A stretch of 64,000 nucleotides of DNA, from NCBI RefSeq assembly GCF_016651255.1, contig NZ_JAEKEG010000050.1, forward strand, positions 1 to 64,000. Direction: 5' to 3'. The translations under genes were made by a program, and so were the position numbers. Source of the DNA: Pseudomonas sp. TH10 (GTDB lineage: Bacteria > Pseudomonadota > Gammaproteobacteria > Pseudomonadales > Pseudomonadaceae). This document shows positions 17,551-33,107 of this stretch, in pieces. Below the pieces are notes generated by a model. The model was given only the letters and a program-made list of their open reading frames with translations, ran no database searches and was not told the DNA's origin. The first letter of the stretch is position 1. Every line of letters begins with the position of its first letter.

Positions 17551-18546
17551 TCAGTCCTGGCGAATACGCTGCTTGAAGGTCCGGGCGATGGCTTGCACGC
17601 CAGGTTGATAGTCCTGCTGCTCGATGGCTGCCAATGCCAGTTGCAGGGCCTTGTCGGCGATCAGCTGATGTTGCTGGGCCATGGCATTCACCGGCAGTGG
17701 CAGGAAATCCAGCAACTGGGTGTCGCCAAATGTGCCAAGGCGCAACGGCCGGGATTTCAGCGGGAAATCGTGCAAGGCATCGAACACGCCCTGCAACAGC
17801 ACATAGGAGGTGGTAACGAGCGCGTCGGGCAGGTGCCCCAGGCGTTGCAGCATTTGCTCCATCAGCTGCTTGCCACATTCGCGGCTGAAGGATTCGCCGT
17901 GCTCTATCAGCACCTCGCCATCAAACCCGGCCAACGCTTGCTTGAAGCCTGCAGCACGCTCCTGGCTGATGCTCAGTTCAGGGCGCGCGCCGATCAGGGC
18001 AATCTGCGTGGGCAGGGGCTGCAACAGACTGCGGGTCAATTGCAGACTGGCCTCGCGGTCGTCGCTGATCACCGAGCAGAAATGCTCCGGTTCCATGACC
18101 CGGTCGATGGCGATGATCGGCAAGCCTTTGGCCTGCAACTGACGATAACTGTCGTCCCCGGCCGGCAGGCAACTGGCGACGATCAGGGCATCGCAGCGAC
18201 GCGCGCGGAACAGTTGCAGCAGTTGCCGTTCGCTTTCGGGTGCATCGTCGGAACTGGCGATCAGCAACTGATAGCCGCGCGCCCGCGCCCCTTGCTCCAG
18301 CAGTTTGGCGATCCGCGCGTAACTGGGGTTTTCCAGATCCGGCAGAATAAAACCCAACGTGCGGGTGTGGCGGCTGCGCAACCCGGCCGCTTGTGGGTTT
18401 GGCGTAAAGCCATGCAGGTCGACCACTGCGCGCACCCGCTCGACAGTGGCGGTGCTGATGCGTTGCTGTTCGGCCTTGCCGTTGATGACGTAGCTGGCGG
18501 TGGTCACGGACACTCCGGCCAACCGCGCGATATCACTGAGTTTCAA
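17551..18546 (-). CDS. cra: LacI-family catabolite repressor/activator Cra (FruR)
   Basis: Represses the fructose operon and is released by fructose-1-phosphate. The 331-residue protein starts with the LacI helix-turn-helix MKLSDIARLAGVSVTTASYVING, followed by a periplasmic-binding-protein-like sugar domain (from RTLGFILPDLENPSYARI). It is divergent from fruB, with a perfect copy of the known P. putida Cra site between them. TatD follows on the same strand after 3 bp. Confidence 0.93.
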   Translation of the reverse strand: MKLSDIARLAGVSVTTASYVINGKAEQQRISTATVERVRAVVDLHGFTPNPQAAGLRSRHTRTLGFILPDLENPSYARIAKLLEQGARARGYQLLIASSDDAPESERQLLQLFRARRCDALIVASCLPAGDDSYRQLQAKGLPIIAIDRVMEPEHFCSVISDDREASLQLTRSLLQPLPTQIALIGARPELSISQERAAGFKQALAGFDGEVLIEHGESFSRECGKQLMEQMLQRLGHLPDALVTTSYVLLQGVFDALHDFPLKSRPLRLGTFGDTQLLDFLPLPVNAMAQQHQLIADKALQLALAAIEQQDYQPGVQAIARTFKQRIRQD

Positions 18547-18852: not shown

Positions 18853-21714
18853 ATGCTCGAGCTCACTATAGAGCAGATATCCATGGGCCAATCGGCCGTG
18901 GATAAACCCGCCGCCCTGCAATTGCTGGCCAATCATCTGGTGGCCGATGGTCTGGTCGCCGACGGCTACCTTGCCGGATTGCAGGCCCGGGAAGCCCAGG
19001 GCTCGACCTTTCTCGGTCAAGGTATCGCCATTCCCCACGGCACCCCGGAAACCCGCGATCAGGTGTTCGCCACTGGCGTGCGCCTGATGCAGTTTCCCGA
19101 GGGCGTGGATTGGGGCGATGGCCAGATCGTTTATCTGGCCATCGGCATTGCCGCCAAATCCGACGAACACCTGCGTCTGCTGCAACTGCTGACCCGCGCC
19201 CTCGGCGAGACTGATCTGGGCCAGGCCCTGCGTCGCGCCAGTTCGCCCGAAGCGCTGCTGAAACTGCTGCAAGGCGCACCGCAGGAACTGGCGCTGGATG
19301 CCCAGATGATTGGCCTGGGTGTGTCCGCCGACGACTTCGAAGAGCTGGTGTGGCGCGGTGCGCGTCTACTGCGCCAGGCGGATTGTGTGAGTAATGGTTT
19401 CGCTGCGGTATTGCAGCAGGTTGAAGCGCTGCCGCTGGGTGACGGTTTGTGGTGGCTGCACAGCGAACAGACAGTCAAGCGTCCTGGCCTGGCATTCGTG
19501 ACGCCGGACAAACCGATGCGCTACCTCGGTCAGCCGCTGAGCGGTCTGTTTTGCCTGGCCAGTCTCGGCGAAGCGCATCAGGCCTTGCTTGAGCGCTTGT
19601 GCGCGCTGCTCATTGAAGGTCGCGGCCACGAACTCGGTCGGGCCACCAGCAGCCGCAAAGTCCTCGAAGTGCTCGGCGGTGAACTGCCCGCTGACTGGCC
19701 GAGTGCACGCATTGCGCTGGCCAACGCCCACGGCTTGCACGCGCGCCCGGCGAAGATCCTCGCGCAATTGGCGAAGAGTTTTAATGGCGAAATCCGTGTG
19801 CGCATCGTCGATGGCCAGGACAGCGCCGTGTCGGTGAAGAGCCTGAGCAAACTGCTCAGCCTCGGCGCCCGTCGCGGTCAGGTGCTGGAGTTGATTGCTG
19901 AACCGAGCATCGCCGCCGACGCCTTGCCGGCACTGCTCGCCGCCATCGAAGAAGGCCTCGGTGAAGAAGTCGAGCCGCTGCCCGCCATCAGCCAACAGCG
20001 CGAAGTGCTCACCGACATCGCCGAAGTGCTGATCGCTCCGGCCTCCGGCAGCCTGCTGCAAGCGATCCCGGCAGCACCGGGCATCGCCATCGGCCCGGCG
20101 CACATTCAAGTGCTGCAAGCCATCGATTACCCATTGCGTGGCGAGTCCGCCGCCATCGAGCGTGAGCGCCTCAAGCAAGCGCTGGCCGATGTGCGCAACG
20201 ATATTCAAGGCCTGATCGAACGCAGCAAAGCCAAAGCGATCCGCGAGATCTTCATCACCCATCAGGAGATGCTCGACGACCCGGAACTCACCGACGAAGT
20301 CGACACGCGTCTCAAGCAGGGCGAAAGCGCTGAAGCGGCGTGGATGGCGGTGATCGAAGCGGCCGCCAAGCAGCAGGAATCGTTGCAGGATGCCTTGCTC
20401 GCCGAACGTGCGGCGGATCTGCGTGACATTGGCCGCCGCGTGCTGGCGCAACTGTGTGGCGTGGCAACCCCGAGCGAGCCTGAGCAACCGTACATTCTGG
20501 TGATGGACGAGGTCGGCCCATCCGATGTGGCGCGGCTCGATCCGGCGCGGGTGGCGGGAATACTGACCGCTCGCGGCGGTGCCACGGCGCACAGTGCAAT
20601 CGTCGCCCGTGCTCTCGGCATTCCGGCACTGGTCGGTGCTGGCGCAGCGGTGTTGTTGCTGGCGCCGGGCACGCCGTTGCTGCTCGATGGCCAACGCGGT
20701 CGCCTGCACGTCGACGCCGATGCGGCGACCCTGCAACGCGCCGCCGAAGAGCGCGACACCCGCGAGCAACGCCTGAAGATTGCCGCCGAACAACGCCACC
20801 AACCGGCACACACTACCGACGGTCACGCCGTCGAAGTGTTCGCCAACATCGGTGAAAGCGCCGGTGTGATCAGCGCGGTGGAGCAGGGCGCCGAAGGCAT
20901 CGGTCTGCTGCGCACCGAGCTGATTTTCATGGCCCACCCGCAAGCGCCGGACGAAGCCACCCAGGAAGCTGAATACCGCCGCGTCCTCGACGGCCTCGCC
21001 GGTCGGCCGCTGGTGGTGCGCACGCTGGATGTCGGCGGCGACAAACCGCTGCCGTATTGGCCGATCGCCAAGGAAGAGAATCCGTTCCTCGGTGTGCGCG
21101 GTATTCGCCTGACCTTGCAGCGTCCGCAGATCATGGAAGCGCAATTGCGTGCCTTGCTGCGTTCGGCGGACAACCGTCCGCTGCGGATCATGTTCCCGAT
21201 GGTCGGCAGCGTTGAAGAGTGGCGCCAGGCCCGTGACATGACCGAGCGTCTGCGTCTGGAAATCCCGGTCGCTGACCTGCAACTGGGGATCATGATCGAA
21301 GTGCCGTCCGCCGCATTGCTGGCGCCGGTGCTGGCCAGGGAAGTCGACTTCTTCAGCGTCGGCACCAACGACCTGACCCAATACACCTTGGCCATCGACC
21401 GTGGCCATCCAACGCTGTCGGCGCAGGCGGACGGCTTGCACCCGGCGGTACTGCAATTGATCGACATCACCGTGCGCGCCGCCCATGCCCATGGCAAATG
21501 GGTCGGCGTGTGCGGCGAACTGGCGGCGGATCCGTTGGCGGTGCCGGTGCTGGTCGGCCTCGGTGTCGATGAGCTGAGCGTGTCCGGCCGCAGCATTGCC
21601 GAAGTGAAAGCGCGCATCCGCGAACTCAGCCTGACCCAGGCGCAAACCCTTGCTCAACACGCCCTGGCCGTCGGCAGCGCGAATGAAGTACGCGCACTAG
21701 TGGAGGCCCTGTAA
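18853..21714 (+). CDS. fruB: fructose PTS multiphosphoryl transfer protein (EIIA-HPr-EI)
   Basis: Carries phosphate from PEP to the fructose permease FruA in one 953-residue cytoplasmic polypeptide. Domain order is EIIA-Fru (His62 in GIAIPHGTPE), a linker, HPr (His296 in AHGLHARPA) and enzyme I from about residue 400 (active His580 in GGATAHSAIVAR, PEP-binding FFSVGTNDLTQY and VCGELAADP near the C-terminus). The ATG follows AAGGAG. Its stop overlaps the fruK start (TAATG). Expression is probably controlled by Cra at the upstream operator. Confidence 0.96.
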   Translation: MLELTIEQISMGQSAVDKPAALQLLANHLVADGLVADGYLAGLQAREAQGSTFLGQGIAIPHGTPETRDQVFATGVRLMQFPEGVDWGDGQIVYLAIGIAAKSDEHLRLLQLLTRALGETDLGQALRRASSPEALLKLLQGAPQELALDAQMIGLGVSADDFEELVWRGARLLRQADCVSNGFAAVLQQVEALPLGDGLWWLHSEQTVKRPGLAFVTPDKPMRYLGQPLSGLFCLASLGEAHQALLERLCALLIEGRGHELGRATSSRKVLEVLGGELPADWPSARIALANAHGLHARPAKILAQLAKSFNGEIRVRIVDGQDSAVSVKSLSKLLSLGARRGQVLELIAEPSIAADALPALLAAIEEGLGEEVEPLPAISQQREVLTDIAEVLIAPASGSLLQAIPAAPGIAIGPAHIQVLQAIDYPLRGESAAIERERLKQALADVRNDIQGLIERSKAKAIREIFITHQEMLDDPELTDEVDTRLKQGESAEAAWMAVIEAAAKQQESLQDALLAERAADLRDIGRRVLAQLCGVATPSEPEQPYILVMDEVGPSDVARLDPARVAGILTARGGATAHSAIVARALGIPALVGAGAAVLLLAPGTPLLLDGQRGRLHVDADAATLQRAAEERDTREQRLKIAAEQRHQPAHTTDGHAVEVFANIGESAGVISAVEQGAEGIGLLRTELIFMAHPQAPDEATQEAEYRRVLDGLAGRPLVVRTLDVGGDKPLPYWPIAKEENPFLGVRGIRLTLQRPQIMEAQLRALLRSADNRPLRIMFPMVGSVEEWRQARDMTERLRLEIPVADLQLGIMIEVPSAALLAPVLAREVDFFSVGTNDLTQYTLAIDRGHPTLSAQADGLHPAVLQLIDITVRAAHAHGKWVGVCGELAADPLAVPVLVGLGVDELSVSGRSIAEVKARIRELSLTQAQTLAQHALAVGSANEVRALVEAL

Positions 21715-22655
21715 TGGCCAAGATCCTGACCCTGACCCTCAACCCGGCACTGGACCTCACTGTCCAGTTGCCCCGCCTTGAACCCGGCCAGGTCAATCGC
21801 AGTGACGAGATGCACACCCACGCGGCCGGCAAGGGCGTGAACGTGGCGCAGGTACTGGCAGACCTCGGGCATCAATTGACGGTCAGCGGGTTTCTCGGTG
21901 CAGACAATCCCCAGGCATTCGAGACGCTGTTCGCCAAGCGTGGCTTTGTCGATGAGTTCATTCGTGTTCCGGGTGAAACCCGCAGCAACCTCAAGCTCGC
22001 CGAGAGCGATGGGCGCATCACCGACGTCAACGGTCCGGGACCGCTGGTCAGCGTCGCGGCGCAGCAGGCGTTGCTTGACCGCCTGGATCAAATCGCACCC
22101 GATCATGACGCGGTCGTCGTCGCCGGCAGCTTGCCCCAGGGTGTCAGCCCGGCATGGTTGCAGGCACTGATCGAGCGTCTAAAGAATCTCGGCCTGAAGG
22201 TGGCCCTCGACACCAGCGGCGAAGCCCTGCGCGCAGCGCTCAAGGCCGGACCCTGGCTGATCAAGCCCAACGCCGAAGAACTGGCCGAGGTATTCGATAG
22301 CGAAATGGTGTCGGTGGCTGCGCAGGCTGCAGTAGCGGGTCGCCTGCACGCGCAAGGTATCGAGCACGTAGTGATCTCCGATGGCGCGCAAGGTGTGAAC
22401 TGGTTCAGCGTTGGCTCGGCGATGCACGCCACGCCGCCGAAAGTCAGTGTCGCCAGCACGGTTGGCGCTGGTGATTCGCTGTTGGCCGGCATGCTTCACG
22501 GTCTGCTCAGCGCCGACACGCCGGAGCAAACCCTGCGCACTGCCACGGCGATTGCAGCGATGGCGGTGACGCAGATCGGTTTTGGCATCAACGACGCCGC
22601 GCAACTGGCGCAGCTCGAACAGGGCGTGCGCGTGCGCCCCCTGACAGAACAATAA
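21714..22655 (+). CDS. fruK: 1-phosphofructokinase
   Basis: Phosphorylates fructose-1-phosphate, the product of the PTS, to fructose-1,6-bisphosphate. The 313-residue protein is a PfkB-family ribokinase-like kinase: TLNPALDLTVQL at the N-terminus, GKGVNVAQVL, and the catalytic-base motif STVGAGDSLLAG with the Asp near residue 251. It overlaps fruB by one base and is followed by fruA after 11 bp. Confidence 0.96.
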   Translation: MAKILTLTLNPALDLTVQLPRLEPGQVNRSDEMHTHAAGKGVNVAQVLADLGHQLTVSGFLGADNPQAFETLFAKRGFVDEFIRVPGETRSNLKLAESDGRITDVNGPGPLVSVAAQQALLDRLDQIAPDHDAVVVAGSLPQGVSPAWLQALIERLKNLGLKVALDTSGEALRAALKAGPWLIKPNAEELAEVFDSEMVSVAAQAAVAGRLHAQGIEHVVISDGAQGVNWFSVGSAMHATPPKVSVASTVGAGDSLLAGMLHGLLSADTPEQTLRTATAIAAMAVTQIGFGINDAAQLAQLEQGVRVRPLTEQ

Positions 22656-22666
22656 GAGGGTTTGTC

Positions 22667-24405
22667 ATGAAGTTAGCCATTGTTACGGCGTGCCCGAACG
22701 GCATGGTCACCAGTGTGCTGTGCGCCCGTTTGCTGGATGCTGCAGCGCAGCGCCAGGGCTGGAGCACCAGCGTCGAAGTCACCGATGCGGCGCACCCTGA
22801 GCGGCAATTGTCGGCCGCCACCCTGGAGGCGGCCGAGTGGGTATTGCTGGTGACCAGTGCGCCTGTGGACATGTCGAGATTCGTCGGCAAGCGCGTGTTC
22901 CAGAGCACTCCGGCCCAGGCCCTGCAGGACGTAGAGGCGGTGCTGCGCAAGGGCGCCGATGAGGCGCAGATTTACGTGGCCCCCGAAGCCGTTGCCCAGG
23001 CACTGCCCACCGGCCAGGCCGCGCCGAGACTGGTGGCGATTACCGCCTGCCCGACCGGTGTCGCCCATACGTTCATGGCCGCCGAAGCCCTGCAGCAAGC
23101 GGCCAAGCGCCTGGGCTACGACCTGCAAGTCGAAACCCAGGGGTCGGTCGGCGCGCGCAATCCGCTGAGCGCCGAGGCCATTGCCCAGGCCGATGTGGTG
23201 CTGTTGGCCTGTGACATCGAAGTGGCGACCGAGCGTTTTGCCGGGAAAAAATCTACCGCTGCGGCACGGGTATCGCCCTCAAGCAAGCCGAGGCCACCCT
23301 CAACAAAGCGCTGGCCGAGGGCTCGCAGGAAACTGCAGCGAGTGGAACCCAAGGCCCCGCCAAGCAGGAGAAGACGGGCGTCTATAAGCACTTGCTGACC
23401 GGCGTGTCGTTCATGCTGCCGATGGTGGTGGCAGGCGGCTTGATGATCGCTTTGTCGTTTGTGTTCGGCATCACCGCGTTCAAAGAGGAGGGCACCCTGG
23501 CTGCCGCGCTGATGCAGATCGGTGGCGATACCGCATTCAAACTGATGGTGCCGTTGCTGGCGGGTTACATCGCCTACTCGATCGCCGACCGCCCGGGCCT
23601 CGCGCCGGGGATGATCGGCGGTATGCTGGCGAGCACTCTTGGCGCGGGCTTCATCGGCGGGATCATTGCCGGTTTCATCGCCGGTTATGCCGCCAAGGCG
23701 ATCAATCGTTATGCGCGATTGCCGCAGAGCCTCGAAGCGCTGAAACCGATCTTGATCATCCCGTTGCTCGCCAGTTTGTTCACCGGCCTGGTGATGATCT
23801 ATGTGGTTGGCAAACCCGTAGCCGGGATGCTGGAAGGGCTCACTCACTTCCTCGACAGCATGGGCACCACCAACGCGATCCTGCTGGGCGTGTTGCTCGG
23901 CGGCATGATGTGCGTCGACCTTGGCGGGCCGATCAACAAGGCCGCCTACGCGTTCTCGGTAGGGCTGCTGGCATCGCAGAGTTATGCACCGATGGCCGCG
24001 ACCATGGCCGCCGGGATGGTGCCGCCGATCGGGTTGGGCATCGCCACCTTCATCGCCCGGCGCAAGTTCGCCCAGTCAGAGCGTGAGGCGGGTAAGGCTG
24101 CTTTTGTGTTGGGGCTGTGCTTCATTTCCGAAGGCGCGATTCCCTTCGCTGCCAAGGATCCGTTGCGGGTGATCCCGGCGAGCATCGCCGGTGGGGCGCT
24201 GACGGGTGCATTGTCGATGTACTTCGGCTGCAAGCTCATGGCACCGCACGGCGGGTTGTTTGTGCTGGCCATTCCGAATGCGATCAACCATGCCTTGCTC
24301 TATCTGCTGGCGATCGTTGCAGGGAGCCTGGTGACAGCGGTGGCTTACGCGCTGCTCAAGCGCCCGGAAACCGTCGAACTGGCACTCGAGCCCGCCAAGG
24401 CCTGA
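22667..24405 (+). pseudogene. fruA: fructose PTS permease EIIBC with a -1 frameshift
   Basis: Membrane permease that takes up fructose as fructose-1-phosphate, phosphorylated by FruB. The intact protein would be about 579 residues: a degenerate EIIB' domain (ITVACP-type motif, Cys9), an EIIB domain (Cys128 in ITACPTGVAHT) and a multi-span EIIC domain. Frame 1 runs from 22667 to 23398, but family similarity ends at 23250 after ERFAGKK. It resumes as IYRCGTGIALKQAEATL in the -1 frame from 23251, open to 24405. The break is at six A residues (23246-23251); seven would restore the gene. It may be a sequencing indel, a real mutation, or slippage during expression. Confidence 0.9.
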
Positions 24406-24413
24406 TACCACCC

Positions 24414-24515
24414 ACTGTAGGAGCGAGCTTGCTCGCGAAAACGCGAAGACAGCGCGGGGTGTCATGCAACCCTCGTCATCGTTAACGACCATCGCGAGCA
24501 AGCTCGCTCCTGCAG
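24414..24515. repeat. REPIN-like inverted repeat (GAGCGAGCTTGCTCGCGA type)
   Basis: CTGTAGGAGCGAGCTTGCTCGCGA and its inverted copy TCGCGAGCAAGCTCGCTCCTGCAG bracket about 55 bp, between convergent fruA and piuB. Near-identical elements occur at 27222 and 33006. Confidence 0.85.
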
Positions 24516-27221: not shown

Positions 27222-27321
27222 CCTGTAGGAGCAAGCTTGCTCGCGAAAACTCGAGAGCAACGCGGGGTATCTGGGTGCCCGCGTCATCGTTGACGACCAT
27301 CGCGAGCGAGCTCGCTCCTGC
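27222..27321. repeat. REPIN-like inverted repeat (GAGCAAGCTTGCTCGCGA type)
   Basis: CTGTAGGAGCAAGCTTGCTCGCGAAAAC pairs with ATCGCGAGCGAGCTCGCTCCTGC across about 52 bp. It lies in the piuA-piuB spacer and shares even its central bases (CGCGGGGT, GTCATCGTT) with the copy at 24414. Confidence 0.85.
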
Positions 27322-33005: not shown

Positions 33006-33107
33006 GTGCAGGAGCGAGCTTGCTCGCGATGGACGTCAACGATAGCGCAGGGAACCTGATACCCCGCGGGGCCATTGAGTGCATCGCGAGCAAGCTCGCT
33101 CCTACAG
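33006..33107. repeat. REPIN-like inverted repeat (GAGCGAGCTTGCTCGCGA type)
   Basis: TGCAGGAGCGAGCTTGCTCGCGATGG and CATCGCGAGCAAGCTCGCTCCTACA bracket about 50 bp. It starts 11 bp after the stop of the ABC ATPase gene and probably marks the end of that transcript. Confidence 0.85.

Follow-up and report, generated by a model that had tools for sequence, protein, structure and literature searches.

The fruBKA operon of Pseudomonas putida and its divergent cra gene have been described (PMC5141268, in the part of that paper used here). Systematic errors of nanopore sequencing consist mostly of insertions and deletions within homopolymers, and they generate an excess of apparent pseudogenes if they are not corrected (the portion of PMC8011154 considered here). 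Frameshifts that are singletons and validated by BLASTp are expected to be sequencing errors, and those confirmed by both BLASTp and Pfam may be such errors or may reflect indel mutations in pseudogenes, according to the excerpt of PMC3711429 on which we rely.

The fru locus of Pseudomonas sp. TH10

The window analyzed here is a stretch of 64,000 nucleotides from Pseudomonas sp. TH10, positions 1 to 64,000 of contig NZ_JAEKEG010000050.1. It belongs to a draft assembly (G000) that comprises 179 contigs and has a completeness of 78%. The window contains a locus similar to that of P. putida KT2440 in its gene order (fruB-fruK-fruA), its divergent cra gene, the EI-HPr-EIIA content of FruB and the domain order of FruA, as these are given in the same part of PMC5141268. 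It differs from a P. putida-type fruA in that the frame, open in 136/136 relatives, is interrupted in the TH10 assembly. The features of the locus are as follows.

17551..18546, minus strand: cra/fruR, catabolite repressor/activator, 331 aa, intact open reading frame (PRK11303, 489.6 bits; TIGR02417, 461.3 bits)
18853..21714, plus strand: fruB, EIIA-HPr-EI polyprotein, 953 aa, intact (PTS_EIIA_2, PTS-HPr and PEP-utiliser domains)
21714..22655, plus strand: fruK, 1-phosphofructokinase, 313 aa, intact (TIGR03828, E=2.3e-103, above cut-off)
22667..23398, plus strand: fruA piece 1, zero-frame open reading frame of 243 aa, EIIB'-EIIB
23246..23251, plus strand: A6 run at the frame break; G242 and G059, the nearest genomes, have A7
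23251..24405, plus strand: fruA piece 2, −1 frame, EIIC, otherwise open through to the stop codon

The cra/fruR gene, divergent from fruBKA, scored above the cut-offs of both PRK11303 and TIGR02417, and fruB exceeded those of TIGR01417 and PRK11109. The fruBKA operon carries no lesion besides the A6 run of fruA, and fruA was the sole split gene of the window at the thresholds of the two split-gene counts given below, which was counted against a sequencing error.

The sequence-only reading had proposed that fruA, with its EIIB'-EIIB-EIIC architecture within the Pseudomonas fruB-fruK-fruA operon, is split by a −1 frameshift at a run of six A. This was borne out by the open reading frames, by the domain matches and by the one additional base in the run of the nearest genomes. 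The run interrupts the gene at 23246-23251 (GCCGGG-AAAAAA-TCTACC). Piece 1 is native to about residue 195, residues 1-195 aligning to the G242 protein, and continues as an out-of-frame tail of 48 codons; it matched the fructose EIIB profiles TIGR00829 and PF02302 and, for the N-terminal EIIB', PF25554. Piece 2 matched TIGR01427 (E=3e-146) and PF02378 (E=7.3e-22), and the FruA proteins of G242 and G059 aligned to it in a single piece over their residues 191-579. Along PRK10712 (563 positions), piece 1 covered the profile up to position 180 and piece 2 covered positions 180-558. Both pieces together hold EIIB' and EIIB followed by a fructose EIIC, and the one continuous polypeptide encoded by all 136 relatives read is absent from the TH10 assembly. 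The EIIC part shows no further decay. The overlap of about 150 bp that had been claimed for the two frames also proved correct, the zero and −1 frames both being open over 23251-23398 (about 148 bp). When the whole assembly was searched with the PTS_EIIC profile, the only match was the fruA gene of the window.

The fruA site in relatives and possible slippage

The fruA site was read at 136 loci, of which 56 came from one genome collection and 80 belong to named records of Pseudomonas and Stutzerimonas. They are a subset of all matching genomes (in one collection, 369 of 398 had a match); some contigs seem to be present in both collections, and 131 distinct coding sequences are represented. At every locus, fruA was uninterrupted, with a single frame of 565-586 aa. 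The nearest genomes found were G242 (97.9% identity across fruA) and G059 (91.7%), both of which have exactly one base more in the A run and encode a FruA of 579 aa. It had been suggested to check whether A7 is universal, and it is not: A7 occurs in 3/136 relatives, namely G242, G059 and a more distant one (L095), and what holds throughout is the uninterrupted frame. In the remaining 133, the longest A run at the site is 5 or less, and A6 was found in none. Since 133 of the 136 relatives are without an A run above 5 at this place, the run is a local spelling rather than a conserved element. Phase variation was rejected as a candidate, the longest A run not exceeding 5 in 133/136 relatives.

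If the six A were real, the gene might still be used, either by ribosomal or polymerase slippage that restores the frame or as separate domain proteins through reinitiation at TTG 23392, but we regard this as very unlikely. Each domain is complete within its frame, and the TTG of the EIIC frame lies a few bases before the zero-frame stop codon (TGA, 23396-23398), so that a split permease would be conceivable were A6 real, with no further observation in its favor. The overlap of 48 codons also exceeds the median of 16 codons expected from the corresponding shadow frame of relatives; however, 24/131 relatives would reach 48 codons or more, and thus no special cause is needed. No Shine-Dalgarno sequence was seen by eye at normal spacing upstream of the TTG. 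Production of the fructose permease by this strain in the form of two polypeptides (EIIB'-EIIB and EIIC), through termination-reinitiation at this TTG or slippage on A6, is likewise highly improbable.

Slippage is unsupported because the A run is not conserved and synonymous codons are not constrained. A slippery site is not conserved across the fruA orthologues (A7 in 3/136, A6 in none, and no A run above 5 in 133/136), and synonymous variation is not reduced, codon diversity being 0.593 at the site for a gene mean of 0.575, with 64% of the 20-codon fruA windows at or below the value of the site (131 distinct coding sequences). The locus resembles dnaX-like programmed −1 frameshifting in having an A-rich run where the frame changes, but differs from it in the lack of conservation of the run and of synonymous constraint, and programmed frameshifting was rejected on these two grounds. 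We also counted against slippage that G AAA AAA is presumably not a classical slippery heptamer of the A AAA AAG type. A search of a collection of open-access papers found none joining programmed frameshifting, fruA and the phosphotransferase system.

Run lengths and split genes across the assembly

The raw density of A/T 7-runs was non-discriminating, with 3.9 per 100 kb in the TH10 assembly versus 4.0 in the 80 named loci (11.9 in G242 and 10.2 in G059), and runs at the same aligned places were therefore compared in pairs between TH10 stretches and G242 or G059. Contigs were sampled by number, and runs were counted only where the four bases flanking them on either side matched. Alignments to G242 were obtained for 20 of the 56 stretches sampled; they total 311,085 bases and average 91% identity. 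Over these 311 kb, runs of at least 6 were shorter in TH10 in 24 cases, longer in 1 and equal in 46. A/T 7-runs of G242 were read in TH10 as 6 in 8 cases, as 5 in 1 and as 7 in 3, fruA included; that 3/12 stayed at 7 was counted against a sequencing error. In a smaller set, tallied from alignment tables, TH10 runs were shorter in 8 cases, longer in 0 and equal in 14 when compared with G242, and shorter in 4, longer in 0 and equal in 11 when compared with G059. In the control comparison of G242 with G059, 1 run was shorter, 1 was longer and 15 were equal, with no such bias. A shortening of runs is thus observed elsewhere in the TH10 assembly and is absent between the relatives.

Split genes were counted from open reading frames of G242 of at least 150 aa that matched the TH10 assembly at 85% or more. 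In TH10, 158 of these were whole and 13 were split by frameshifts (13/171, with 24 partial matches set aside as unclassified). In the reverse direction, 162 TH10 open reading frames were whole in G242 and 2 were split (2/164, with 26 partial matches set aside as unclassified), both splits being echoes of lesions in TH10. Among the 13, one (L183 into L156) is a shadow open reading frame in a non-ribosomal peptide synthetase gene, for which a one-base difference is present in the alignment, and one (L289) is a complex gap pair. In a smaller run at a looser threshold, G242 open reading frames gave 6 splits and 65 whole in TH10 (one gene counted twice, and one antisense frame), and G059 open reading frames gave 7 splits and 61 whole. 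The controls gave 3 of 70 split for TH10 in G242 (two echoes and one unexplained), 0 of 65 for TH10 in G059, 2 of 67 for G242 in G059 (one antisense shadow frame and one unexplained) and 0 of 67 for G059 in G242; that these comparisons were not empty (2 of 67; 3 of 70) was counted against an error. A first, unfiltered tally had included several antisense shadow open reading frames, most of which are filtered in the two later counts.

The alignments of the lesions show gaps of one or two bases, several of them within A or T runs of 5 to 7; some TH10 lesions are insertions or are sited outside runs. Unrelated genes are hit, such as rnfD, a GcvA-like regulator, cobalt-precorrin-6A reductase, an aldehyde dehydrogenase, recJ and others. 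When nine further split open reading frames were scanned with NCBIfam at 1e-40, 3 had no match. In its shortened A/T and G/C runs and its many apparent split genes, the TH10 assembly resembles drafts with homopolymer indel errors, for example those from nanopore reads (PMC8011154, in the part considered above). Compared with such drafts, it comprises 179 contigs at 78% completeness, and some of its lesions fall outside runs.

The non-ribosomal peptide synthetase gene mentioned above (L156:11921-17190, contig C80) is one base short at one site and one base long at another, about 1.9 kb away, relative to G242. Both differences are probably also assembly errors.

Across the whole assembly, 11 matches to class I tRNA synthetases were found. 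Among the matches identified, one is an isoleucyl-tRNA synthetase, on contig C139 adjoining ribF, and this ileS is broken into two frames at GAACAAAAGTCG. The other PF00133 matches examined were ValRS, MetRS and two LeuRS, a short match on contig C107 being left out of the identification. IleRS is essential. Because cells cannot live without it, the ileS lesion is false unless another copy of the gene sits in the missing part of the genome, and a lesion in a gene that the cell cannot lose is thus found in this assembly, which is 78% complete. The split of ileS points to false frameshifts in the assembly, of the same kind as the break in fruA. That a second ileS could lie in the missing part was counted on the opposite side, as was the fact that rpoC, valS, metG and the two leuS-like genes are open, which means that not every long gene is affected.

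The two leucyl-tRNA synthetase genes of the assembly are L307 (contig C106, open frame of 839 aa) and L306 (contig C47, 908 aa). A second LeuRS copy may serve for self-resistance when its gene adjoins an antibiotic cluster.

The number of split genes (13/171) could also suggest a hypermutator or a decaying genome, in which the shortening of runs and the splits would be real and fruA one casualty among them. This is extremely improbable: runs of at least 6 differ almost exclusively by being shorter (24 to 1), neither mutS nor mutL is interrupted, and the one ileS found is hit, a loss that a viable cell would not tolerate unless the missing part of the genome holds a further copy. A mismatch-repair mutator was rejected as a candidate on the state of mutS and mutL.

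A real and recent one-base deletion in the A run, which would make fruA a null or near-null allele with fruB and fruK still intact, takes the sequence as it is given. It agrees with the absence of a second lesion in the operon and with the PTS_EIIC search of the assembly, in which fruA was the sole match, and we also counted for it that A runs are mutation-prone. On the other hand, the EIIC part shows no sign of further decay, and the shortened runs and the split genes, ileS included, make an error far likelier a priori. We thus consider a real deletion unlikely.

A sequencing or assembly error is favored because this assembly shortens runs, has an excess of split genes and breaks ileS, and, judged from these comparisons of sequences, it is very probably the cause of the break in fruA. 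The open frame of all 136 relatives, the A7 of the two nearest genomes and the open state of mutS and mutL were likewise counted for it. A run of seven A would have been called as six, and the organism would most likely carry an ordinary intact fruA encoding one EIIB'BC fructose permease, in a standard fruBKA operon beside cra. We infer that the fruA site is itself one of the errors of the assembly and not a real mutation; the break is probably not a real feature, and fruA is probably ordinary as biology. Of the three options that the sequence-only reading had offered, the homopolymer error is strongly supported by the runs (24/1/46), the splits (13/171) and ileS, slippage found no support, with 133/136 relatives lacking the run and synonymous codons unconstrained, and a recent null mutation is unlikely.

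The TH10 genome appears to carry many false frameshifts, with 13 of 171 comparable reading frames split. Findings of a broken gene, of a split gene or of slippage from this genome should therefore be treated as errors until the reads have been seen.

Other observations around fruA

The stretch from fruK to fruA (21750-24250 of the window) is unusually close to G242, with 98.2% identity across 22700-24200. This value was matched by none of 108 overlapping 1.5-kb windows in positions 1-40000 (mean 90.9%), some of which overlap fruA. Identity to G059 over the same stretch is average (91.6%). On the basis of these alignments, the likeness to G242 suggests a recent exchange between both lineages or a chimeric assembly.

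On the 3' side of fruA, positions 24415-24515 hold a 24-nt inverted repeat, with arms that are 96% complementary and 53 nt between them. Related copies were found in the window near 27223-27321 and 33007-33107, and we take this repeat to be like the dispersed REP elements of Pseudomonas.
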